A DNA stretch of 64,000 nt, from NCBI GenBank assembly GCA_003226295.1, contig CP029803.1, forward strand, positions 2,547,001-2,611,000, read 5' to 3'. The position numbers and the translations under genes are program-made. How positions within the stretch are numbered: the first letter of the stretch is position 1; each line of letters opens with the position of its first letter. This DNA comes from Candidatus Moanabacter tarae (GTDB lineage: Bacteria > Verrucomicrobiota > Verrucomicrobiia > Opitutales > UBA2987). Shown here piece by piece: positions 47,857 to 62,831 of this stretch. A model generated the notes under the pieces. The model did no database searches, was not told the origin of the DNA, and saw nothing but the letters and a program-made list of their open reading frames with translations.

Positions 47857-49935
47857 CTAAGAAACGACAATTTTAGTAGATAATTCCGCAGGGGGATCGA
47901 TCCACTTTTGCTCCTTTTTAATGAGATTAATAAGTCTTTCTACGGCGTCTTCTGCAGGGATGTGGTATTCGACACATTTCTTACCCACGTAAAGGTTGAT
48001 TTTGCCTGGGGCGCCTCCGACGTAACCGAAGTCCGCATCCGCCATTTCTCCTGGACCGTTTACAATGCAACCCATGACTGCGATCGTAACTCCCTTGAGA
48101 TGGTCCGTCATTGACCTCACTTTTTGAGTTGTCGATTGAAGATCGAACAGCGTGCGACCGCAGCTAGGACAAGCAACGTATTCCGTTTTTGAGATTCTCG
48201 CCCGGGCTCCCTGAAGGATATTATAAGCTAATGAGGTTGCCCTGGGCAGATCGGGTTCAAGTTCAACACTAATAATATCTCCGATGCCGTCACAGAGAAG
48301 AGCGCCGGTTAGGATAGCCGCCTCGAGCAGCCGATCGCCAAAATAGCCTCGACAGTCGATACTGTTTTCTTGGGTGTTGCGAATCCATATGGGAGCTTCG
48401 ATTCCAAGTTTAAGGAGATGACTAGCCAAAGCGCGATAGTTGCCAATCGGATGCGTGTTTGGACTTGGAATGGAAACGGTGAAGATAAAATTCGAGGTAC
48501 CTGATTTGGCAAAAAACGGAGCGAAAGCAGGCAAATCATCAGGCTCAATGTCCAGTGCGAGGCGCAGGTTATTCTGTTCGCAGAAATCTGCGTAATCGGC
48601 AAACCGTTTTTTCTCGATGGAAGAAAACCTCGAGCTAATTATGAAGCCATCACATTTGGGCCAATCTACTGCGTTAAGTTCCACTCCGGAAATTTGACTG
48701 TCGATGGAGAGAACCAGAAATGGAACCTTTTTATTAAGGGATTCCGATAAATCCAAAACATCTGCCAGATCTTCGGCAGAGGCAATATCTACAAGTAAAC
48801 CTTCAATCCTCGCTTCCTTTAGTTCCGTGTGGGTACGTTCTACGTCTTCCAGGATTTCCCTAAACCTCGAAGGCGGTTTTCTTGCTGCTACAATCACGCT
48901 AGGAGGTTTATTGGCTCCTACGGAGATTCCCGAGTTGAGCTCGATTGCCCTAGCCTTTCTCCGGGTATAAGAAAACGGATCCACTGGATCTTCGGTCTGT
49001 CCTGATAAGGTTGTTTTGCGGTTCGATTCCCAAAGTCTCCAAGCTTTTTCAGCGAGATCTTTAGCGACTGGTATCTCGTTCACAGGATCTTCGGTAAGCG
49101 AGACCCTAATAGTGTCGCCTAGCCCATCAAAAAGCAGGCCTCCGATTCCGATCGCACTCTTAATGCGAGCATCATCCCCATCTCCGGCTTCTGTAACCCC
49201 TAGATGGAGAGGATAATTCATGCCCTCGGCTGACATTTTAGATACTACCAATCGATAGGCTTCAATCATCACCTTTGGATTGCTGGACTTCATCGACAAG
49301 ATGATATTTTTGAAGCTGTGAGACTCAGCTATACGAATAAATTCAAGGGCTGACTCGACCATTCCTAGAGGTGTATCGCCGTACCGATTCATGATCCGAT
49401 CGGAAAGTGAACCGTGATTAGTTCCTATTCGCATCGATCGGCCCAGGTCCCTACATTTTAAGACAATCGGCGAGAAGTCTTCGTAGAGACGTCCTAGTTC
49501 ATTATCGTATTGTTTATCTGAGTACTCTCGAAGGACAAATTTCTTCTGGTCCGAGTAGTTTCCGGGATTAATTCGTACCTTTTCGACGTGTTCCGCGGCT
49601 TCCATGGCGGCGGATGGAATAAAATGGATGTCGGCAACAAGGGGAACATTCACCCTAGCGAGATGCAGCTGACGTCGAATTTCCTTCAAGGATTTAGCAG
49701 CTGTGATGTTCTGTGCTGTAATTCGCACGATCTCACAGCCAGCTTCAACTAAAGCGATAGTCTGCTTCACAGTAGCGAAAACATCCTGGGTCGGGGTTGT
49801 CGTCATCGACTGGATTCGTATGGGATTATCGCCCCCTATGGAGACGTCTCCGACTGAGACTTCCCTAGAAGTCCTACGCCGGGCGATATACCGTGATGCA
49901 CAATAAGGGGATAAAACTTCTTTCCTACTGGTCAT
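47857..49935 (-). CDS. ispG: 4-hydroxy-3-methylbut-2-enyl diphosphate synthase, long form
   Basis: A 692-residue GcpE/IspG. The TIM barrel begins VGDVSIGGDNPIRIQSMTTT and includes ADIHFIPSAAMEAAEHVEKVRINPGN. A large central insertion (about residues 290-560, the extra domain also seen in chlamydial and plant enzymes) separates it from the 4Fe-4S domain with CPSCGRTLFDL and VMGCIVNGPGEMADADFGYVGG. It reduces MEcPP to HMBPP in the MEP pathway. The start at 49935 overlaps the rseP end by 11 bases; the open frame further upstream is antisense-like extension inside rseP. Dxr of the same pathway lies two genes upstream. Confidence 0.94.
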   Translation of the reverse strand: MTSRKEVLSPYCASRYIARRRTSREVSVGDVSIGGDNPIRIQSMTTTPTQDVFATVKQTIALVEAGCEIVRITAQNITAAKSLKEIRRQLHLARVNVPLVADIHFIPSAAMEAAEHVEKVRINPGNYSDQKKFVLREYSDKQYDNELGRLYEDFSPIVLKCRDLGRSMRIGTNHGSLSDRIMNRYGDTPLGMVESALEFIRIAESHSFKNIILSMKSSNPKVMIEAYRLVVSKMSAEGMNYPLHLGVTEAGDGDDARIKSAIGIGGLLFDGLGDTIRVSLTEDPVNEIPVAKDLAEKAWRLWESNRKTTLSGQTEDPVDPFSYTRRKARAIELNSGISVGANKPPSVIVAARKPPSRFREILEDVERTHTELKEARIEGLLVDIASAEDLADVLDLSESLNKKVPFLVLSIDSQISGVELNAVDWPKCDGFIISSRFSSIEKKRFADYADFCEQNNLRLALDIEPDDLPAFAPFFAKSGTSNFIFTVSIPSPNTHPIGNYRALASHLLKLGIEAPIWIRNTQENSIDCRGYFGDRLLEAAILTGALLCDGIGDIISVELEPDLPRATSLAYNILQGARARISKTEYVACPSCGRTLFDLQSTTQKVRSMTDHLKGVTIAVMGCIVNGPGEMADADFGYVGGAPGKINLYVGKKCVEYHIPAEDAVERLINLIKKEQKWIDPPAELSTKIVVS

Positions 49936-51751
49936 CGAATGGGCTGGAACTTGAGAATACGGGTTTAATGTGGAGTGAATTCTGTAACTCAAACTGGCGT
50001 TCTGCCTTATTATCTCCCTGCCATCTCCTGATGTCGAAGAAACTGACATAGATAATAAGAGAAAAGAGCAGGAGCATGAAAATCCCTTGAGTTCTGACAA
50101 TGACACCTGGAGGGAGTGGTTTACCCCGGATTTTAGCCAGGGTGGCAAAGGCGATATGCCCCCCGTCCAGGACGGGGATAGGGAGGAGATTAAGGATGGC
50201 AAGATTGATGTTTAGAAGGCAGACAAACCAGAGGACGAGCCGGATATCTATCTTCGAAAGCTGATCGATAGCCCTAATAATACCCGGAGGCCCACTCAGA
50301 TTGCGGAATCCAATATCTGACTTCGTGCTGACAAGACTGCCTAGGACTTGGAAAGTTGTTTGGATGATCTCAGTAAACTGTTCAATGGGATTGAGATATA
50401 TGGTCATCTGCCGGCCACCTAGTTGGGCGCCAATCATGGGTCTTTTCTGAGGAGAAATTAGCGATGCAGATGCGGTGCCAAGGATCGCAAAATGTTTGGT
50501 TTCACTTTCCCTTTCAATTATCAGGCTCAAGGTCCCCTCAGGGCTCTCGTTGACTAACTCGACCCAGGATTCAAGAGAAGTGTAAGAACTCCTACTCACG
50601 GATTGAATTCGATCGCCGCTGAATATGCCGGAGAAGACAAGACCGGTTGGGTCATCAAGGTGGTGAACCGTAAGGACGGAGGGAGACGAAGGATTAGCAG
50701 GATCTGCTGGCCTTTCATCCGATCGGTAAATTGGCTGTAGGGTGAGGGTGGCTTCACGCTTTATATCTTTAACAGTCAGTTTTCCTAGTGGCTTGGTGAA
50801 GGCGACGGCCTCTGGTTCAATCGCAGTATCGAATATATCTCCATTTCGGTCGATTGTGAGGACAACACTGCGATCGCCTGTTTCGATCAGATATTCGATA
50901 AAACTTCTAAGCGAAAACATTTTGATGCCGTCAATGGCTAACACCTGGTCATCGATCTTGAGACCTGAGCGGGAAGCCGGTGAATCATCTTCGATTCGTT
51001 TTACGATCAAGGAATGGGCTGGACGAATATCTATTAGTCGGAGGCGTTCACCAGAGGCAGGATTGATTTCTACCAACTGTGGGAACACATCAAGTTTAAA
51101 AATTTTTCCATCTCTTTCTATTGTAAAGACTGCCTTAGGACTTCCCGTATCGTCGCGTCCTGAGCCGGTGATTAGCGTATGGATTAACTCAGAGAAATTC
51201 GAAACCTCTTGGTCATCGATAGCAAGGACCCTATCGCCTGGCCTTAAACCAGCGGCAAAAGCCGGGCCTTCAACCTCGGTGTTTTCATCTAGAGTCAGCG
51301 TTTTGCCAACATGGCCAATTACTGTAGTCTGTGCTTCTTCACTGGATGGTTGACCGACTCCCCAGAGGATGGAAGAGATGACGAAGGCAAAGATAATGTT
51401 GAATACGGCACCCATAACTGAGACGATCAGTTTGTCTGTAAAGGAAATCGGCGGAAGTTCCTCCGCCGATTGGGCGTGTCTCCCTTCAACTGCTCCGAGT
51501 TCAGCTAATTGGGGAAGGGCTACGTAGCCGCCAATTGGGAGGAGAGATATACAATACTCGATTCCACCGCGGTTCCAGGATATTACTTTGGGACCGAAAC
51601 CGATAGAGAATCTTTCAATTTTGAGCCCTCGTCTTTTCGCCGCAAGGAAATGACCAAGCTCGTGGACAAATATAGATCCACCGAAGAGCAGGATTATGAG
51701 AAAAAGTGACCATGTGTTCGCAAATAGTGGCTGTATCACTGCGGGATTCAT
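49925..51751 (-). CDS. rseP: site-2 protease RseP family metalloprotease
   Basis: A 608-residue intramembrane zinc protease, longer than the usual 420-460. The first membrane segment holds FVHELGHFLAAKRRG (HExxH). The second motif LLPIPVLDGGHIAF lies near residue 525. Between them are PDZ-like units, including EGPAFAAGLRPGDRVLAIDD and DSPASRSGLKIDDQVLAIDG, and a further extracytoplasmic region (about 320-420) with DDPTGLVFSGIFSGDRI, probably a third PDZ. It cleaves membrane-bound anti-sigma factors or signal-peptide remnants. It sits between dxr and ispG, 18 bp after the former. Confidence 0.94.
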   Translation of the reverse strand: MNPAVIQPLFANTWSLFLIILLFGGSIFVHELGHFLAAKRRGLKIERFSIGFGPKVISWNRGGIEYCISLLPIGGYVALPQLAELGAVEGRHAQSAEELPPISFTDKLIVSVMGAVFNIIFAFVISSILWGVGQPSSEEAQTTVIGHVGKTLTLDENTEVEGPAFAAGLRPGDRVLAIDDQEVSNFSELIHTLITGSGRDDTGSPKAVFTIERDGKIFKLDVFPQLVEINPASGERLRLIDIRPAHSLIVKRIEDDSPASRSGLKIDDQVLAIDGIKMFSLRSFIEYLIETGDRSVVLTIDRNGDIFDTAIEPEAVAFTKPLGKLTVKDIKREATLTLQPIYRSDERPADPANPSSPSVLTVHHLDDPTGLVFSGIFSGDRIQSVSRSSYTSLESWVELVNESPEGTLSLIIERESETKHFAILGTASASLISPQKRPMIGAQLGGRQMTIYLNPIEQFTEIIQTTFQVLGSLVSTKSDIGFRNLSGPPGIIRAIDQLSKIDIRLVLWFVCLLNINLAILNLLPIPVLDGGHIAFATLAKIRGKPLPPGVIVRTQGIFMLLLFSLIIYVSFFDIRRWQGDNKAERQFELQNSLHIKPVFSSSSPFDDQ

Positions 51752-51769
51752 TTGGACGGAAGTTTCAGA

Positions 51770-52942
51770 TTAGTCCGAGGAAAAACTTAGCACCAGTTCT
51801 CTTCCCAGGGATCGCGCGGCAGAATCAGCGGCGATCACATCATCGAGATTAGCAGGATCCAGGTTTCTTGTCTTTTGTAGCGACTCTTCGATGATCTCAG
51901 CAATCTCGAGATATTTAATGGAGCCGCGCAAAAAAGCAGATACAGCAACTTCGTTTACAGCATTGAACACAGTCGGAGCTATGCCTTCAGCTTCCATCGC
52001 TTCACGCGCTAAACGTAGACAAGGAAATCTGCCGTAATCTGGGGGATGAAATTCGAGCCCCCAAGTTTGGGAAAAGTCGAGAGATTCATCAACTCCCGGC
52101 GCCCTATGGGGGTAAAGTAAAGCATTTTGAATTGCAAATGTCATGGAGGGGGGGGAAAGCTGTGCAATAATGGAACCATCGACAAATTCTACTAATGAAT
52201 GGACGATACTTTGGGGGTGAATGACAACCTCAATTCTCTTTGCCGCATCGCCGAAGAGCCATTTTGCCTCTATAAGTTCCAACCCTTTGTTAGCCATGGT
52301 CGAAGAGTCGACAGTGATTTTAGTACCCATTGACCAATTTGGGTGCTTTGTTGCGTCTGCCGGCCGAATTGACTTCATTTGATCGCGGGTAAAGTTGCGG
52401 AAAGGACCACCGGAGGCGGTAAGGATTATCCTGGCTACTTCACTGGACTTTCTCCCATCAAGGCACTGAAAGATGGCATTGTGTTCGCTGTCAATTGGAA
52501 GAATTTGGGTATTGAATTTCTGGGTTGCTGCGGTGACGAATTTACCCGCCATCACCATCACCTCCTTGCTTGCCAGAGCGATTTCTTTCCCAGCAGAGAT
52601 CGCGGCGAGGCTCGGTTCTAGACCCATAGTCCCGACTATAGCTACGACTACCGTATCGACATCAGGATGAGTTGCGACTTCGTTCAAGCCTTCTATGCCG
52701 CTTCCCAGTGCGACTGAGTTCCCGAATAGTTTTTCTCTTTTAGCTTGGCGGCAAGCAAGGGGATCAAAAATCGCGGCGACTGAGACGTTGAATTCTTTGG
52801 CAATTTCAGCGAGACGCAAAGATCGAGAATTGCCTGCTATGCCCACTAGGCGAAGACGGTCTGGATTTGCGCGAACAACTCGAAGTGTACTAGCTCCGAT
52901 TGATCCAGTTGCACCGAGTAGGGCGATGTTCTTAGGGCGCAT
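51770..52942 (-). CDS. dxr: 1-deoxy-D-xylulose 5-phosphate reductoisomerase
   Basis: A 390-residue NADPH enzyme of the MEP pathway. Motifs: NADPH loop LLGATGSIGASTLRVV, LASKEVMVMAGKFV, LPIDSEHNAIFQCL with metal ligands, TASGGPFRNF, HPNWSMGTKITVDSSTMANKGLELIEA, and HPQSIVHSLVEF. The order cdsA-dxr-rseP is common in bacteria. It is transcribed toward rseP and ispG. Confidence 0.97.
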   Translation of the reverse strand: MRPKNIALLGATGSIGASTLRVVRANPDRLRLVGIAGNSRSLRLAEIAKEFNVSVAAIFDPLACRQAKREKLFGNSVALGSGIEGLNEVATHPDVDTVVVAIVGTMGLEPSLAAISAGKEIALASKEVMVMAGKFVTAATQKFNTQILPIDSEHNAIFQCLDGRKSSEVARIILTASGGPFRNFTRDQMKSIRPADATKHPNWSMGTKITVDSSTMANKGLELIEAKWLFGDAAKRIEVVIHPQSIVHSLVEFVDGSIIAQLSPPSMTFAIQNALLYPHRAPGVDESLDFSQTWGLEFHPPDYGRFPCLRLAREAMEAEGIAPTVFNAVNEVAVSAFLRGSIKYLEIAEIIEESLQKTRNLDPANLDDVIAADSAARSLGRELVLSFSSD

Positions 52943-53110
52943 GATAATGAGTAACTAAAGTATCTTATACATTAATTGCAGAAGAAGAGAATAGGTACCA
53001 CATTGTAGAGAGCGGGAAAACGCAACCGATTACTGGACCTCATCGAATCGTAACGGCCAGAGCAATCTTTTGATTCCCTGATCTAGGTTTTAGTAAGACA
53101 CTCCATATCG

Positions 53111-53161
53111 AGATAAGATAAAGTTGAAACTTAAAGTTCCTTATTTCATGAGGTCTTATCT
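53111..53161. repeat. inverted repeat between cdsA and dxr
   Basis: AGATAAGA (53111-53118) and TCTTATCT (53154-53161) are perfect 8-bp arms flanking a 35-bp A/T-rich loop, 30 bp after the cdsA stop. It could be a terminator stem or an operator of the dxr promoter. Support is weak. Confidence 0.3.
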
Positions 53162-53190
53162 GAATGCTCAAAGCAAATAAGGATCGATTC

Positions 53191-54003
53191 TTAGCTGATC
53201 AAAAAGACTCGAATCAGAACATAGCCGCAGGGAGCACTGATAAGTAGGCTGTCAGCGAGATCGAGGGCACCGCCGATTCCAGGAATAATGGTCCCTGAAT
53301 CTTTCTGGTGCGCCAAGCGTTTCAGGTACGATTGAACGAGATCTGACACAATCGCAGTTGCCGAGATTGGGAAAGCAAGTAGAACAGCAGATGCGGGCGA
53401 GAATAATTGAGGCAGGTGGTTCTTGAATGCGAGAACGTATGTGGCCCCAGCAAGCCCGGATACGACAACCCCCCCGATCGCGCCTTCCCAAGTCTTATTC
53501 GGGCTCGTCTTGGGCGCTATCTTCCTACTGCCAATAGCTTTACCGACGAGTAGACCTCCGACATCGGTAAATTTGGCAGTCAGAATAAGCCAGACAGCAA
53601 GAAGTAAACCTTCTTTTCTGTCAGTCGGTAGATTAAGGGTAAGAACGATAAAGCTTAGAGCGAAAGGAATGCAGAGAATTCCGAAGAGTGTTACGGCTAC
53701 TCTTCTAGTAATTGACGAGCTGCTAAATTCGGCTAGCGCAGTGGAGGCCAGGCAGATGAGAGAAAGAATGATGAAATCTTGGAAGGTTCCGAAATAAGAA
53801 ACGAGAATAAGAACCGTTCCAAGAGCTGCTCCTGGCTGGACGTATCCAGGCCTTCCGGACTTTTCGAGCAGGGTGTAGAATTCAGACTGTGCTAGGATAG
53901 AAAGAGAAACTACCAGAAGAAGTCCGGCAATGGGACCAAACAGGACAAGAACTACTATAATTGTGCTCCAAAGGACCAGGGTACTGAGAACTCTAGGTGT
54001 CAC
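53191..54003 (-). CDS. cdsA: phosphatidate cytidylyltransferase
   Basis: A 270-residue polytopic membrane enzyme making CDP-diacylglycerol from phosphatidate and CTP. It has about seven to eight helices and the C-terminal region SPNKTWEGAIGG, YLKRLAHQKDSG and IIPGIGGALDLADSLL. Compared with the classic family signature, the His of PGHGG is Ile and the Arg of the LDRxD part is Leu, while the metal-binding aspartates remain. The start overlaps the uppS stop by four bases (ATGA). Confidence 0.9.
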   Translation of the reverse strand: MTPRVLSTLVLWSTIIVVLVLFGPIAGLLLVVSLSILAQSEFYTLLEKSGRPGYVQPGAALGTVLILVSYFGTFQDFIILSLICLASTALAEFSSSSITRRVAVTLFGILCIPFALSFIVLTLNLPTDRKEGLLLAVWLILTAKFTDVGGLLVGKAIGSRKIAPKTSPNKTWEGAIGGVVVSGLAGATYVLAFKNHLPQLFSPASAVLLAFPISATAIVSDLVQSYLKRLAHQKDSGTIIPGIGGALDLADSLLISAPCGYVLIRVFLIS

Positions 54004-54746
54004 TTGTTAAGAAGAAGCTCGGGAAGAGAACTTTTCACCTGATCACCCGTCATTCCGAAACGGCGCTCTTTTTTCTTGTAGCTCTTAATGGCTTCCTCGA
54101 AGTCCTTAGGACTGAAGTCGGGCCAGAGTTTTTTGGAAAAAATCCATTCCGCATATGCTCCTTGGAGAAGAAGGAAATTACTCAGACGCGTCTCCCCAGA
54201 GGTTCTGATGATCAGGTCTGGATCTGGTATGTCCCAAGTATAAAGATAGCTAGAAAATCGTTTCCAATTAAGGTCTTTGGGTTGCTCTCTTCCTTCCCTG
54301 GCTGCATCGATATAAGCTTTCACTGCATCAATAATCTCCGAGCGTGAGCCATAGTTTACGGCGAGGACAAATGTCCCCTTAGAGAAGTCTGATGTCTCTT
54401 GTACGGTGTCGCGGAGATTTTTCTGAATATTGGCGGGGAAATCTTCAATTCGTCCAATCACCTTCAGACGTATTTGATGTTGGCGTAACTCTTGGACATG
54501 TCTTTTAAGGAAGTTTTCCAGCAAATTCAGGAGAAGCCCCACCTCTTTTTGTGGCCGAGCCCAATTCTCGGCTGAAAAGGCAAAAGCTGTTAGGTAGTGG
54601 ATTCCGAGGGATTGAGCGCATCGCAGTATACGACGGAGATTTTCAACACCATTTCGGTGTCCTTCATTGCGGGGCAAACCCCTTTTTTGGGCCCACCTCC
54701 CATTCCCATCCATGATGATTCCCACGTGATTGGGTTTGTTCTCCAT
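54000..54746 (-). CDS. uppS: isoprenyl transferase (undecaprenyl diphosphate synthase)
   Basis: A 248-residue cis-prenyltransferase that builds the lipid carrier for peptidoglycan and polysaccharide from farnesyl and isopentenyl diphosphate. Motifs: HVGIIMDGNGRWAQKRG with catalytic Asp 13, GHRNGVENLRRIL, TAFAFSAENWARP and PDLIIRTSGETRLSNFLL, then YAEWIFSKKLWPDF. The ATG at 54746 starts the conserved N-terminus; an in-frame start at 54818 is less likely. It heads the run uppS-cdsA-dxr-rseP-ispG. Confidence 0.96.
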   Translation of the reverse strand: MENKPNHVGIIMDGNGRWAQKRGLPRNEGHRNGVENLRRILRCAQSLGIHYLTAFAFSAENWARPQKEVGLLLNLLENFLKRHVQELRQHQIRLKVIGRIEDFPANIQKNLRDTVQETSDFSKGTFVLAVNYGSRSEIIDAVKAYIDAAREGREQPKDLNWKRFSSYLYTWDIPDPDLIIRTSGETRLSNFLLLQGAYAEWIFSKKLWPDFSPKDFEEAIKSYKKKERRFGMTGDQVKSSLPELLLNK

Positions 54747-55215
54747 GACCGATTCGACCCCCTTCTTCAAAAATAAGTTTTCCTGGAGAGAGTAAAGGAC
54801 TTTTCGTAAAAAGAGCAAAAGGAAAGCGTTGGATCTTATTTAGGTTGGGCAATGTGGTGCTGTACTCTAAGAGGAATAGTGAGGAGAGGGGGGGCCGATT
54901 GAGTTGAGAGTATGTACAATGCGAAAGGGTTCAAACCGAGAACGATTGTAATTTGCCTAATAGTTCGTCAACATACTACTTACCCTTGAAGCGATATAGA
55001 GTTTAAGAAAAAACTGGATGCTTTTGAAGTTCGGGATGGTAGCCAATATCTTCAGATTCATAAGAGGGTTCAAGGGATGGGGATATTTCAGCCTAAAAGG
55101 TTTTTTGGATGTGGCAATTGTAGTCTTCATGATCCAGACTTAAGCAGTCAGGTTTCGAATCACTAGGCTTGCCGAAGTTGGGTTATCGTCGATATTGTTT
55201 CAGTAAAAGGAAGGG
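54747..55215. other. 469-bp divergent spacer between uppS and sufS
   Basis: It contains promoters for both directions. A purine-rich stretch with seven consecutive G lies near 54885-54895. I could not fix a -35/-10 pair or an Fe-S regulator site by eye. No gene was seen. Confidence 0.4.
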
Positions 55216-57240: not shown

Positions 57241-58086
57241 CTAGCAATTGTATCCTAGTGCTTCTTGTGCGAACTCAACTGATCCGATTCGGGTGACAGG
57301 ACCAGTCATTTGGACATCAAATTGGTTAGAAAAATCCAGTTCGAGTTGGCCGCCTGGCATGTGAACAATCAACCTATGGTCGACCGCGCCCATTTTAATG
57401 GCTACTGCTGCGGCGGCACAACTACTGCTCCCCGATGCGAGGGTATAACCGGCGCCTCTTTCCCAAATTTCAATGCGAATATTCTGTCGGTCCAGGATTT
57501 GGAGGAGTTGGACGTTGGTGCGATTAGGGAAAAGGGAATGATTTTCGAGTAATGGGCCAATTAGTTTAGCTTTTGTGGAAGAAATTTCATCGAGAGGCAG
57601 GACGCAATGAGGATTTCCAATGGATGCAGCGTAGAATCTATACGTTTCATTATTTAGTTCGATTATCTCGTCGAGGACTTCACGAGGCGGGCCGCTGACG
57701 GGAATTTTGTCACTTAGGAATGTAACTTTTCCCATATCTACCGTGATCGTACTCCCGCGCTCCTTCACAACACACTTTACGCAACCGCCCGAGGTCATCA
57801 CATTAAACGGCTGAACCGAGACTTTCCCCTTGTCCCAAAGATGGCGAGCGAATATCCTCAGCCCGTTACCACTCTTTTCTGCCTCGCTCCCATCGGGATT
57901 GAAAATTTGCAGTCCGAATTCAGCTTCTTCAGATTGGAGGGGTCCGAAAAGGATTCCGTCAGAACCAATTCCGAAGTTGCGATGACAAATCCGCTCAATT
58001 GTTACCTTAGAGGGGGGGTGTTTCTGAAGGGTAGCGTCCAGGACTAGGTAATCGTTCCCCAGGGCGTGGTACTTTTCAAATTTCAT
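57241..58086 (-). CDS. dapF: diaminopimelate epimerase-like protein with Ser in place of both catalytic Cys
   Basis: A 281-residue DapF-fold protein of normal length. It starts KYHALGNDYLVLD and has SDGILFGP, NPDGSEAEKSGNGLRI and WERGAGYTLASGSSSCAAA. In true DapF the two catalytic Cys lie in CGNG and ACGxG; here they are Ser 72 and Ser 218. The substrate-contact Glu of GAGET is Tyr 214. Asn, GNG and Arg residues that hold the substrate backbone remain. Cys-to-Ser enzymes in this fold are normally poor racemases, so another isomerase activity is possible. The frame is intact and overlaps rnr by 4 bases, so it is expressed, not decayed. Confidence 0.85.
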   Translation of the reverse strand: MKFEKYHALGNDYLVLDATLQKHPPSKVTIERICHRNFGIGSDGILFGPLQSEEAEFGLQIFNPDGSEAEKSGNGLRIFARHLWDKGKVSVQPFNVMTSGGCVKCVVKERGSTITVDMGKVTFLSDKIPVSGPPREVLDEIIELNNETYRFYAASIGNPHCVLPLDEISSTKAKLIGPLLENHSLFPNRTNVQLLQILDRQNIRIEIWERGAGYTLASGSSSCAAAAVAIKMGAVDHRLIVHMPGGQLELDFSNQFDVQMTGPVTRIGSVEFAQEALGYNC

Positions 58087-60353
58087 AATGTGAAATCGAT
58101 CTGCCGTTTAAACCGATCTACTTTCTTTACGTACAGATTTACAGATTGGCCGATTCGATAAGATTTTCCGCTTTTACGTCCGACGAGAGCCGACTCTTTT
58201 TCGCTTAGGAAATAAAAATCTTGAGGTAGATCTGAAGCCTGAACGAATCCATAAGCCATCGAATCCTTAAGTTCCACGAAGAATCCATGATTTCTCACAT
58301 CGGTGATCAGAGCTTCGTAGGATTGATCACCCCGGGTTTTCATTCCAAGTTCGAAATATTCAAGTAGTTTTACCTTAACGGATTCTCTCTCTGCTTCCTT
58401 GCTATTTTGTTGGGTCGACGTGAGATGGCTTGAGATAGAGGAAAGGACTGAGGTCTGGTAATGCTTTATTTTTCGAACAGCTGCAGTGTCAGCGTTTTCA
58501 GAATAGAGATATCGGTCTAAAACTCGATGCGTGATTAGATCGGAGTAACGCCGAATAGGGGAGGTGAAATGGGTATAATAGGTTTTGTTTAAGCCATAGT
58601 GACCGTCCCGGCGATTACGATACGATGCAGGCTTCATGCTGCGCAGAACCTCGATACGGAGAAGGGAATTGAGGGGGTGTGTTTTGATTAGTCGGAGTAG
58701 TTTCACCATTTCCTTGCGATGGGTAAGGTCTCCAACCCTAATCGCGAAGTCCAAAAGATATTCACGAAGTTCCCCGAGCCGGTCCCTTTCCGGCTGGTCG
58801 TGGACTCGGTAAATAAGCGGGATCTTAGAAACTCCAATTTGTTTAGCTATGCTTTCGTTCGCTGCTAGCATGAACTCCTCTATGAGCTGATGGCTCTCAT
58901 CATTTTGGATTTTCTCAATCCGTTCGGTAAAGCCTTTCTTGTCGACTATTAGTTTCACTTCAGTGGAATCGAGTTCAAGACTTCCCTTGTTGGTTCGCTG
59001 TCTGCGCAAGCATCCTGCTATTGCCCAAAGTGATTGGAGGTTTTTTTGGAGGCTGTTTATTTCATCTTTAGTCAAGACTGATAACGGGCGACCCGGCGAA
59101 CCGGTTTGATGTGGGGGAGGGGTCGGAATCCGCATTAGCTGATCGTGGTCGACATTTTTCAGAAGCGCAAGGGTCTGTTTGTAAGTAAGACGCTTGCGAC
59201 TTCGAATCACAGTGTTAGCGAAGGAAGAGGCTTTAAATTGCCCTTTTGAAGAAAAAGTGAGGAAGACGGTTTTTGTCAGACGATCTTCCCCCTCTACTAA
59301 ACTGCAAATCCCGTTGGAGAGAGACTGAGGGAGCATTGGAATCACAGAACCTACAAGATAGGTGGAGTTTCCCCGTTTTTGTGCCTCTCTATCAAGTGCA
59401 GAACCGGGTCTTACATAGGCGCTCACATCCGCGATGTGGACACCAACCATAATATCGCCTGAACCTAATGTCTGAATCGAAAGCGCGTCATCAAAATCCT
59501 TAGCATCATCAGGATCGACGGTAAAAGTGTAAAGTTCACGGAGATCGAGACGGTTCTTAAGGTCTCTCTTTCGGATGGCTAATGGGATTTTCTCACACTC
59601 AGAGATAACGGGATCAGGGAATTCAGGCGCCAAATGATAGTTATTCAGCAGGGCTTCAAATTCTGCTGAAGGGCTGTGGGTTTTGCCGAGAACGCGAACT
59701 ATCTCACCTTCTGGAGAAAGGTGACGATCTTTCCACTCCTTGAGTTCGACGATGACTTTATGATTAACTTTTGGTTTAGGGGACAGGGCGGATCCCTTGG
59801 GGTTAGGTACGAGGAGATCAAAATTAAGTCTGGGATCATCAGGAATTACGTAGAAATAGTGATGGCTTCGTTTTAGAGTACCGGAGACAGTTTTTCTGCC
59901 CCTTTCAATAATCCGAATGACTCTGGCTTGGTCCGGTTCTGGGACCGTAACCCCTTTGTCCTTTCGTCTTACTTGGTAGCTAAACGATCTTTTTGTTCGA
60001 CTATCGATTTGGGCGAATACCCTATCCTTATGCATTGCAACGCCAGTGTCTCTTGCCCGCACACTGAAGACTTTCGTTCTCGAGTTCTCCGATTCTGAAT
60101 CAGGAATAATCGTTGCAGATCCATTTTGTCTGAAATTAATGATCCCGGAAATCAGATTGGCGTCCTTTGGCAGACAGTAACGTCTTTCCCCAATTCGGGC
60201 AATTTGGCCAGAGGCCACAAGCCGGTTTAAACTTCTCTGCAAAGTGCGAAACTGGTGTTTCCCCGAACCTATATTTTCCCCAATTTCTCGGGCATTCATA
60301 GGGACATAGTTTCGGTCACCTAGGAGATTAAAAATGACGTTTTCGTTAAACAT
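58083..60353 (-). CDS. rnr: ribonuclease R (RNB-family 3'-5' exoribonuclease)
   Basis: A 756-residue RNase R. An N-terminal helix-turn-helix (YVPMNAREIGENIG) and cold-shock domains precede the RNB catalytic domain with FTVDPDDAKDFDDALS (metal-binding Asp cluster), VGVHIADVSAYV, MLPQSLSNGICSLVEGEDR and HYGLNKTYYTHFTSPIRRYSDL. The C-terminal S1 domain (ALITDVRNHGFFVEL to the end) is last. It degrades structured RNA. It overlaps the dapF-like gene by ATGA and lies 75 bp after the phosphatase gene. Confidence 0.95.
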   Translation of the reverse strand: MFNENVIFNLLGDRNYVPMNAREIGENIGSGKHQFRTLQRSLNRLVASGQIARIGERRYCLPKDANLISGIINFRQNGSATIIPDSESENSRTKVFSVRARDTGVAMHKDRVFAQIDSRTKRSFSYQVRRKDKGVTVPEPDQARVIRIIERGRKTVSGTLKRSHHYFYVIPDDPRLNFDLLVPNPKGSALSPKPKVNHKVIVELKEWKDRHLSPEGEIVRVLGKTHSPSAEFEALLNNYHLAPEFPDPVISECEKIPLAIRKRDLKNRLDLRELYTFTVDPDDAKDFDDALSIQTLGSGDIMVGVHIADVSAYVRPGSALDREAQKRGNSTYLVGSVIPMLPQSLSNGICSLVEGEDRLTKTVFLTFSSKGQFKASSFANTVIRSRKRLTYKQTLALLKNVDHDQLMRIPTPPPHQTGSPGRPLSVLTKDEINSLQKNLQSLWAIAGCLRRQRTNKGSLELDSTEVKLIVDKKGFTERIEKIQNDESHQLIEEFMLAANESIAKQIGVSKIPLIYRVHDQPERDRLGELREYLLDFAIRVGDLTHRKEMVKLLRLIKTHPLNSLLRIEVLRSMKPASYRNRRDGHYGLNKTYYTHFTSPIRRYSDLITHRVLDRYLYSENADTAAVRKIKHYQTSVLSSISSHLTSTQQNSKEAERESVKVKLLEYFELGMKTRGDQSYEALITDVRNHGFFVELKDSMAYGFVQASDLPQDFYFLSEKESALVGRKSGKSYRIGQSVNLYVKKVDRFKRQIDFTL

Positions 60354-61379: not shown

Positions 61380-62831
61380 ATGAGATTCTATTTCATTGGG
61401 ATCTGTGGTGTTGCAATGGGCAATGCCGCGGTTTTGTTGAGTCGACTGGGACATACGGTTTCTGGGGTTGACGCTGGAACCTATCCGCCAATGTCGGAAT
61501 TGCTGAGGGAAGCTGGGATAAAGACTTTCGAAGGTTACGAAGAAGGAAGATTGAAAGAAGAAAATCCCGATTGGGTGGTGATTGGAAACACAATATCGCG
61601 AGGAAATTCTGAAGTTGAGTGGCTCCTTGAATCTAGAAGATTTCCTATTTTGTCCTTGCCGGAACTGCTCCAAAAGTTCGTTCTCCGAGCGCGTTTCAAT
61701 ATTGTGGTTGCGGGAACGCATGGTAAAACGACAACAACTGCCCTGACTACGTTTATTCTACGAGAAAACGGAACGAGGGCTGGCTACTTTGTAGGCGGAG
61801 TCCCATACGATCTTCCATTTGGAGCTGATTTCGGCGAAGGGAATGCACCTTTTGTAATTGAGGGTGATGAGTACGATTCAGCTTTCTTCGATAAAAGAAG
61901 TAAGTTTGTTCACTACGAGCCTAGTATCGTGGTAATTAACAACTTGGAGTTCGATCACTGTGACATATTTGGGAACTTGAGTGATGTGCAGAAAAGTTTT
62001 TCCCACCTTTTACGTTTGGTCCCACGTTCCGGCTATGTACTCCTTAATGGCGACGATCCGAATGTTCAGGCTCTTTTGCCTATTGACTGGACCCGAATTT
62101 TGACCGTTGGGGTGGGGAAAGAATGTGATCTGAGGATAACTAATTTTGAGGAAAAGGGTAGGAAATCAGAATTCAGGCTAAGTTGGAGAGGAAAAGAATG
62201 GCAATCGCTGAGCATGTCCCAAGGCGGTCTCTTTAATGCGCGGAATACTGCTATGGCCGCGCTTGCGGCAGGACTTGCACTCTATCCAAATGATCCGATG
62301 CGTATCAGCCTGAGTTCGGTTGCGTACTTTTCCGGAGTAAAACGACGCCAAGAGGTTCTTTTTACGGATGAGACAGTAACCGTTATCGAAGATTTCGGTC
62401 ATCATCCGACAGCCATTGGTCAGACCCTTGATTATCTAAAATCGAGATATCAGGATAAGCATCTTGTTGCATGCTTCGAACCTCGAAGCAATACATCTAA
62501 AAGAAACATCTTTCAGGACGAGTTTGCTGATGCTTTTTCTAATGCAGATCGGGTTTTGATCGGCCCTTTGCACCGTGCATCTCTAATTCCCGAGAGAGAG
62601 CGTCTAGACACTCTACATCTTGCGAAAATTTTGGAGAAAAGAGGTGTCTCTGCAGTCGCATTTGAGGGAAACCCAGCTTTGCTGGAGACACTGTTGGCAT
62701 ATTTGCAATCCGAGGTGAAACAGAGCTATGTAGTATGTTTTTTCACAAACGGATCTTTTGATGGAATCGTTAAGGAGTTGGTTTCGAGACTTACATCAGG
62801 AGACTCGCTATTTCTTAGACGTCCAGGCTAG
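61380..62831 (+). CDS. mpl: UDP-N-acetylmuramate:L-alanyl-gamma-D-glutamyl-meso-diaminopimelate ligase
   Basis: A 483-residue Mur-ligase-fold protein that recycles murein tripeptide onto UDP-MurNAc. Features: FIGICGVAMGNAAVLL, the ATP loop VVAGTHGKTTTTAL, VIEGDEYDSAFFDKRSKFVHY and NLEFDHCDIFG, then FSGVKRRQEVLF and EDFGHHPTAI. The segment GDEYDSAFFDKRSKF separates Mpl from MurC. It implies meso-diaminopimelate in the wall, relevant to the odd DapF homologue nearby. Confidence 0.93.
   Translation: MRFYFIGICGVAMGNAAVLLSRLGHTVSGVDAGTYPPMSELLREAGIKTFEGYEEGRLKEENPDWVVIGNTISRGNSEVEWLLESRRFPILSLPELLQKFVLRARFNIVVAGTHGKTTTTALTTFILRENGTRAGYFVGGVPYDLPFGADFGEGNAPFVIEGDEYDSAFFDKRSKFVHYEPSIVVINNLEFDHCDIFGNLSDVQKSFSHLLRLVPRSGYVLLNGDDPNVQALLPIDWTRILTVGVGKECDLRITNFEEKGRKSEFRLSWRGKEWQSLSMSQGGLFNARNTAMAALAAGLALYPNDPMRISLSSVAYFSGVKRRQEVLFTDETVTVIEDFGHHPTAIGQTLDYLKSRYQDKHLVACFEPRSNTSKRNIFQDEFADAFSNADRVLIGPLHRASLIPERERLDTLHLAKILEKRGVSAVAFEGNPALLETLLAYLQSEVKQSYVVCFFTNGSFDGIVKELVSRLTSGDSLFLRRPG

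Follow-up and report, generated by a model that had tools for sequence, protein, structure and literature searches.

Diaminopimelate epimerase (DapF), an enzyme of cell-wall and lysine synthesis and an antibiotic target, is a standard example of two-base catalysis by a thiol/thiolate pair; DapL delivers its LL-DAP, and Ddh makes meso-DAP directly, bypassing DapF. In the Cys/Cys enzymes, a lowered pKa of the thiols is believed to result from helix dipoles, and Glu208 of the H. influenzae enzyme binds the substrate (PMC12039745). Single Cys-to-Ser mutants of the related PddB have less than 0.1% activity (PMC8225329) and those of HisR have greatly reduced activity (PMC11602996), which makes a plain swap of cysteine for serine insufficient. 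A search of the open-access literature yielded no description of a naturally occurring Ser/Ser DapF, most subscription papers lying outside that scope. Such a protein is encoded in the window, i.e., the 64,000-nucleotide stretch of the Candidatus Moanabacter tarae contig CP029803.1 analyzed here, and we hold it reasonably probable that its gene encodes the cell’s LL-/meso-DAP epimerase, representing a distinct Ser/Ser DapF subfamily in which serine hydroxyls act as the acid/base pair.

The window gene (Table 1) is full-length according to both the open reading frame list and the family profiles, and its product scores above the cut-offs of TIGR00652, the DapF family (245.4 bits; cut-off 114.65), and PF01678, of which it has two copies (183.7 bits; cut-off 34.7). 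The AlphaFold model (pLDDT 96.1) displays the two-domain DapF fold over its full length, matching Anabaena DapF (9mro) with a VIA Z of 38.4 (rmsd 1.7 over 272 residues) and H. influenzae DapF (1gqz) with a VIA Z of 34.6. The fold match to the proline racemase/hydroxyproline epimerase group is lower (Z of at most 28, 11–16% identity), and membership of the proline racemase/hydroxyproline epimerase or dehydratase family was rejected, PF01678 being the only family above its Pfam cut-off; a bifunctional DapF/glutamate racemase of the kind known from Chlamydia (NF038284) was rejected as well, at 66.4 bits against a cut-off of 350.

Table 1. Positions within the window of the Ser/Ser dapF gene, its discussed codons, and two nearby genes.
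Feature	Positions	Strand	Remarks
dapF, Ser/Ser diaminopimelate epimerase (DapF family), 281 aa	57241..58086	-	ORF, TIGR00652, PF01678, AlphaFold model
Ser72 (codon AGT)	57871..57873	-	Aligns with H. influenzae catalytic Cys73; at the N-terminal end of helix 73-85
Ser218 (codon TCG)	57433..57435	-	Aligns with H. influenzae catalytic Cys217; adjacent to helix 219-231
Lys71 (codon AAG)	57874..57876	-	Clade-specific, beside Ser72; Cys/Cys enzymes have Met, Gln, or Leu
Tyr214 (codon TAT)	57445..57447	-	Clade-specific, at the variable GAG[E/V/I] position
Glu209, substrate-binding	57460..57462	-	Equals E208 of H. influenzae; identical in all 61 sequences of alignment A2
rnr (RNase R), upstream gene	58083..60353	-	Stop overlaps dapF start by 4 nt
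mpl-like muropeptide ligase	61380..62831	+	Best family TIGR01081, 338 bits, below cut-off 388.7

The two catalytic cysteines expected of a DapF (the PROSITE signature includes Cys) are both replaced by serine, as the initial annotation had recognized: Ser72 and Ser218 align with Cys73 and Cys217 of the H. influenzae enzyme, and also with the Cys pair of 9mro, and in the model they occupy the N-termini of helices 73–85 and 219–231, as the thiols do in Cys/Cys enzymes. Tyr214, on the other hand, had been mistaken for a replacement of the substrate-binding Glu, which is in fact the E of “ER” and is kept as Glu209; Tyr214 stands where GAGE has its Glu, a site taken by E, V, or I in Cys/Cys enzymes, the crystallized cyanobacterial Cys/Cys DapF likewise having V or I there. 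The H. influenzae substrate residues N11, N64, N157, N190, E208, and R209 are conserved as N11, N63, N158, N191, E209, and R210 in the window protein, in which N74 is kept too, and a substrate shell so conserved suggests that the substrate is still DAP.

The coupling to rnr was confirmed together with the full-length frame (281 aa), the rnr stop and the dapF start sharing a 4-nt ATGA overlap; as a clue to dapF function it is weak, since rnr lies close upstream in 8 of 80 loci only and the rnr-dapF neighborhood is thus not general. Elsewhere in the window (49925-54818, minus strand), genes for an undecaprenyl diphosphate synthase, a CdsA-like CTP transferase, a DXP reductoisomerase, and an M50 protease with PDZ domains are clustered.

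Judging by the sequences compared, Ser/Ser DapF is a widespread and overlooked branch of diaminopimelate epimerase, and the initial impression that such a branch recurs among proteins annotated as DapF turned out to be right. A phylum survey, in which 388 genomes were searched and 89 sequences were fetched and inspected, yielded (window protein included) 60 Ser-type sequences, all S72/Y214/S218, and 30 others, all Cys/Cys; Lys71, Ser72, Tyr214, Ser218, and Ser221 are present in 60/60 of the former versus 0/30 of the latter, and Tyr6, Ile78, Phe79, Gln193, Glu206, and further residues switch between the two types too. At least 580 related loci emerged from a scan of public genomes, and the best 80 of them, which were inspected, are all Ser/Ser and labeled as Verrucomicrobiota, Planctomycetota, “Deltaproteobacteria”/Desulfobacteraceae, Pseudomonadota, Chloroflexota, Armatimonadota, Cyanobacteriota, and BRC1/Sumerlaeota; the clade would accordingly span about eight phyla, with single labels possibly wrong because many of the loci come from metagenome bins. 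In a tree calculated with the catalytic segments removed, the Ser/Tyr/Ser sequences made up one clade (SH-aLRT 100) on a long branch.

A sequencing error behind the serines is excluded, since TCG is two changes away from any Cys codon (TGC/TGT) and Ser is found at both sites in all 139 clade loci inspected, a few of which are the same genome fetched twice. A pseudogene or decayed copy is rejected in view of the full-length frame and strict Ser/Ser conservation. The earlier suspicion that the changes had been selected was right. Two divergent relatives from reduced genomes were also seen: L281 (G454, a 1-Mb genome; 1111-1791), which has Ser72/Cys218 with Met71 and Arg214 and whose branch is too long for placement in the tree, and L283 (G451, an approximately 1-Mb genome; 1501-1758), which is incomplete near a contig end and has Ser72 with Ile71; both are possible intermediates or reversions.

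No PF01678 gene other than the window dapF occurs in the genome, a single contig of 2.63 Mb (98% complete), a search for a Cys/Cys DapF elsewhere on this contig having returned none. DapL is present (556 bits), and a search of the contig did not find Ddh, on which ground a Ddh bypass in this genome was rejected; the gene thereby occupies the DapF slot of the pathway. The genome’s MurE (L137) shows DNSR at the substrate motif where relatives have DNPR, the meso-DAP motif, with the Arg kept, and a LysA-like decarboxylase scores 261 bits, below its family cut-off of 298.

The distribution across the order was followed in 332 genomes at least 90% complete. With the window protein as the query, 304 of them had a DapF match and 28 had none; for about 28 of the 304, the match was a distant one only (E 1e-14 to 1e-24), and the 13 of these that were read (G224, G290, G311, and ten more) are all Cys/Cys. 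Since nearly every genome of the order has a single DapF match, either Ser-type or Cys-type, with both together only in G638 (a 240-contig bin) among the order genomes checked, the two types substitute for each other. One genus of another family holds both, with Ser/Ser in G023 and Cys/Cys in G093 and G187, all three having DapL, and the incoming Cys genes of the latter two branch at separate places in the tree. Ddh, in turn, is present in 11 of the 28 DapF-less genomes versus 10 of the 304 that have DapF (Fisher p=4e-8, a value made too small by the shared phylogeny of the genomes), with G305, G646, and G647 included among the 11 on account of their absence from the match list. At least four lineages (family f8 and genera g21, g9, and g256) show losses of DapF accompanied by Ddh: G518 of g9 lost DapF, its sisters G080 and G519 having DapF plus Ddh, and G642 of g256 lost it, G641 having both. 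A Ser/Ser protein that supplies meso-DAP would be expected to leave just such an exchange of Ser for Cys types and such Ddh-linked losses. In G284, G436, G498, G560, G590, G603, G619, and G622 of the order, searches for PF01678 genes and for Ddh both came back empty, G284 having DapL and MurE nonetheless, and either assembly gaps or an unknown meso-DAP route would account for such genomes.

Gene order and cultured relatives add to this. Ser/Ser dapF is followed by dapA and dapB in three loci (L160, L177, and L220), and a fourth (L232) runs aspartate kinase (lysC, recognized by eye), dapB, dapA, and Ser/Ser dapF. GC/MS showed DAP to be present in Lacunisphaera limnophila IG16b and Opitutus terrae PB90-1 (chromosomes of 4,199,284 and 5,957,605 bp, respectively), and sacculi were isolated from IG16b, for which TLC showed no DL-DAP and the GC/MS amount, given without stereochemistry, was about 10-fold below that of E. 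coli (Rast et al., PMC5303756). Genomes G275 and G099, which we infer to be IG16b and PB90-1, respectively, each have a single DapF of the Ser/Ser type; Ddh was not found in G275, and a Ddh-like gene (312 bits) is present in G099. A Ser/Ser DapF is also relevant to the long-standing debate over whether peptidoglycan with DAP is made by subdivision 4 Verrucomicrobia.

Taken as a genome comparison, these data make it very probable that the window gene product, by its predicted activity, does the job of a DAP epimerase. The initial annotation had rightly posed a choice between an enzyme working without thiols and the existence of another epimerase; the former is favored by the gene being the sole one of the DapF fold in its genome and by the mutual replacement of the two types.

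As to how such an enzyme might work, the hydroxyls of Ser72 and Ser218, at the N-termini of two facing helices, would take and return the alpha-proton, with the co-switching Lys71, Tyr214, Tyr6, Gln193, Glu206, and Ser221 retuning the site for hydroxyl chemistry, so that hydroxyls alone, or one hydroxyl aided by Lys or Tyr, might replace the thiolates. Lys71, Tyr214, and the pocket residues are the obvious candidates for compensating the lost thiols. Ser/Ser acid-base catalysis appears the most likely mechanism, and that the serines form the acid/base pair is, in itself, somewhat probable. The main rival is a DAP epimerase whose serines are bystanders, the proton being transferred by Lys71, Tyr214, another residue, or a cofactor: Lys71 and Tyr214 are invariant (60/60) and switch together with the serines, the pKa of serine is far above that of a thiol (as argued in PMC8225329), and a chlamydial DapF depends on PLP when acting as a glutamate racemase (PMC5885031). 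We nevertheless think it unlikely, as Ser72 and Ser218 are invariant in the inspected clade and placed at helix N-termini, where Ala or Gly could have served for bystanders; L281 and L283, which have Ser72 without Lys71, also speak against it, as does position 71 making no ligand hydrogen bond in Cys/Cys structures (PMC12039745). The fuller proposal is given an even chance: a natural cofactor-independent two-base epimerase working on a Ser-Ser pair, with Lys71/Tyr214 as a co-evolved second shell that probably activates it, would be distributed over some eight phyla and provide many hosts with their only known source of meso-DAP.

That the replacement of Cys by Ser marks a changed reaction, as had initially been supposed, seems quite improbable. 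The Ser/Ser protein would then catalyze another amino-acid racemization, an elimination, or glutamate racemization, with an unrelated enzyme epimerizing DAP; HisR and DcsC are indeed DapF-like proteins with a changed substrate, and Ser/Ser is found beside Cys/Cys DapF in some cyanobacteria (G394 and G400 among the double-type genomes, which also include G388, G392, and G402), Armatimonadota, one Planctomycetota, one Desulfobacteraceae, and G638, where the Ser/Ser protein may have another role. What speaks against a changed reaction is the exchange with Cys/Cys DapF, the Ddh-linked loss, and the dapA/dapB neighborhood in the four loci. The MurI glutamate racemase was not found in the window’s own genome (G000), which would suit glutamate racemization, but nor was it found in most Ser-type and Cys-type relatives tested, its absence being unlinked to type (the Cys-type G224, G290, G311, G093, and G187 also go without it). 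MurI is present in those g21 genomes from which DapF was lost. In Aphanothece (L184) and Westiellopsis (L208), both of which have Ser/Ser and Cys/Cys DapF, the neighbors of the Ser/Ser gene point to no pathway.

An inactive DapF retained for a structural or regulatory role, e.g., for binding RppH as E. coli DapF does (PDB 6d13), would agree with the near-inactivity of Cys-to-Ser mutants of Cys/Cys enzymes, but is very improbable given the whole conserved substrate shell, the lack of any other DapF in a genome that has DapL, a LysA-like gene, and MurE, and the fact that most Ser/Ser genomes, across several phyla, have no DapF besides the Ser/Ser protein.

Should Ser/Ser DapF be a working epimerase, it would challenge the textbook thiol mechanism: hydroxyls could help to abstract an unactivated alpha-proton without a cofactor, thiolates would be dispensable, and the DapF fold would offer a direct test of pKa tuning. 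Such enzymes would also form a class naturally insensitive to aziridine and other thiol-directed DapF inhibitors, and the annotation of hundreds of genomes would be put right.

Compared with known systems, the window protein shares with DapF (TIGR00652; H. influenzae, E. coli, Anabaena) the fold, the substrate residues, the place in the pathway, and, in some genomes, the neighborhood, whereas it differs in its Ser/Ser pair, the Lys before the first Ser, the Tyr four before the second, an identity of about 35%, and its separate clade. The crystallized H. influenzae DapF mutants C73S and C217S (2q9h and 2q9j; Z 34.3 and 33.6) closely resemble it in fold and have Ser at one of the same two positions, but are laboratory single mutants, whereas the window protein is a natural double replacement with co-varying neighbors. 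The O-ureidoserine racemase DcsC (7vdy) and the histidine racemases HisR and CntK have the same fold and belong to the same cofactor-independent two-base class; HisR and CntK, however, are Cys/Cys and act on a substrate other than DAP, and the sequence match to 7vdy is far weaker than that to a true DapF (E 1e-32 vs. 8e-55). A hydroxyl replacing a thiol without any cofactor is also seen in the E. coli Asp/Glu racemase EcL-DER, which has Thr for one catalytic Cys, although, unlike the window protein, it belongs to another superfamily, has only one of its two Cys replaced, and catalyzes an irreversible reaction (PMC8142540).
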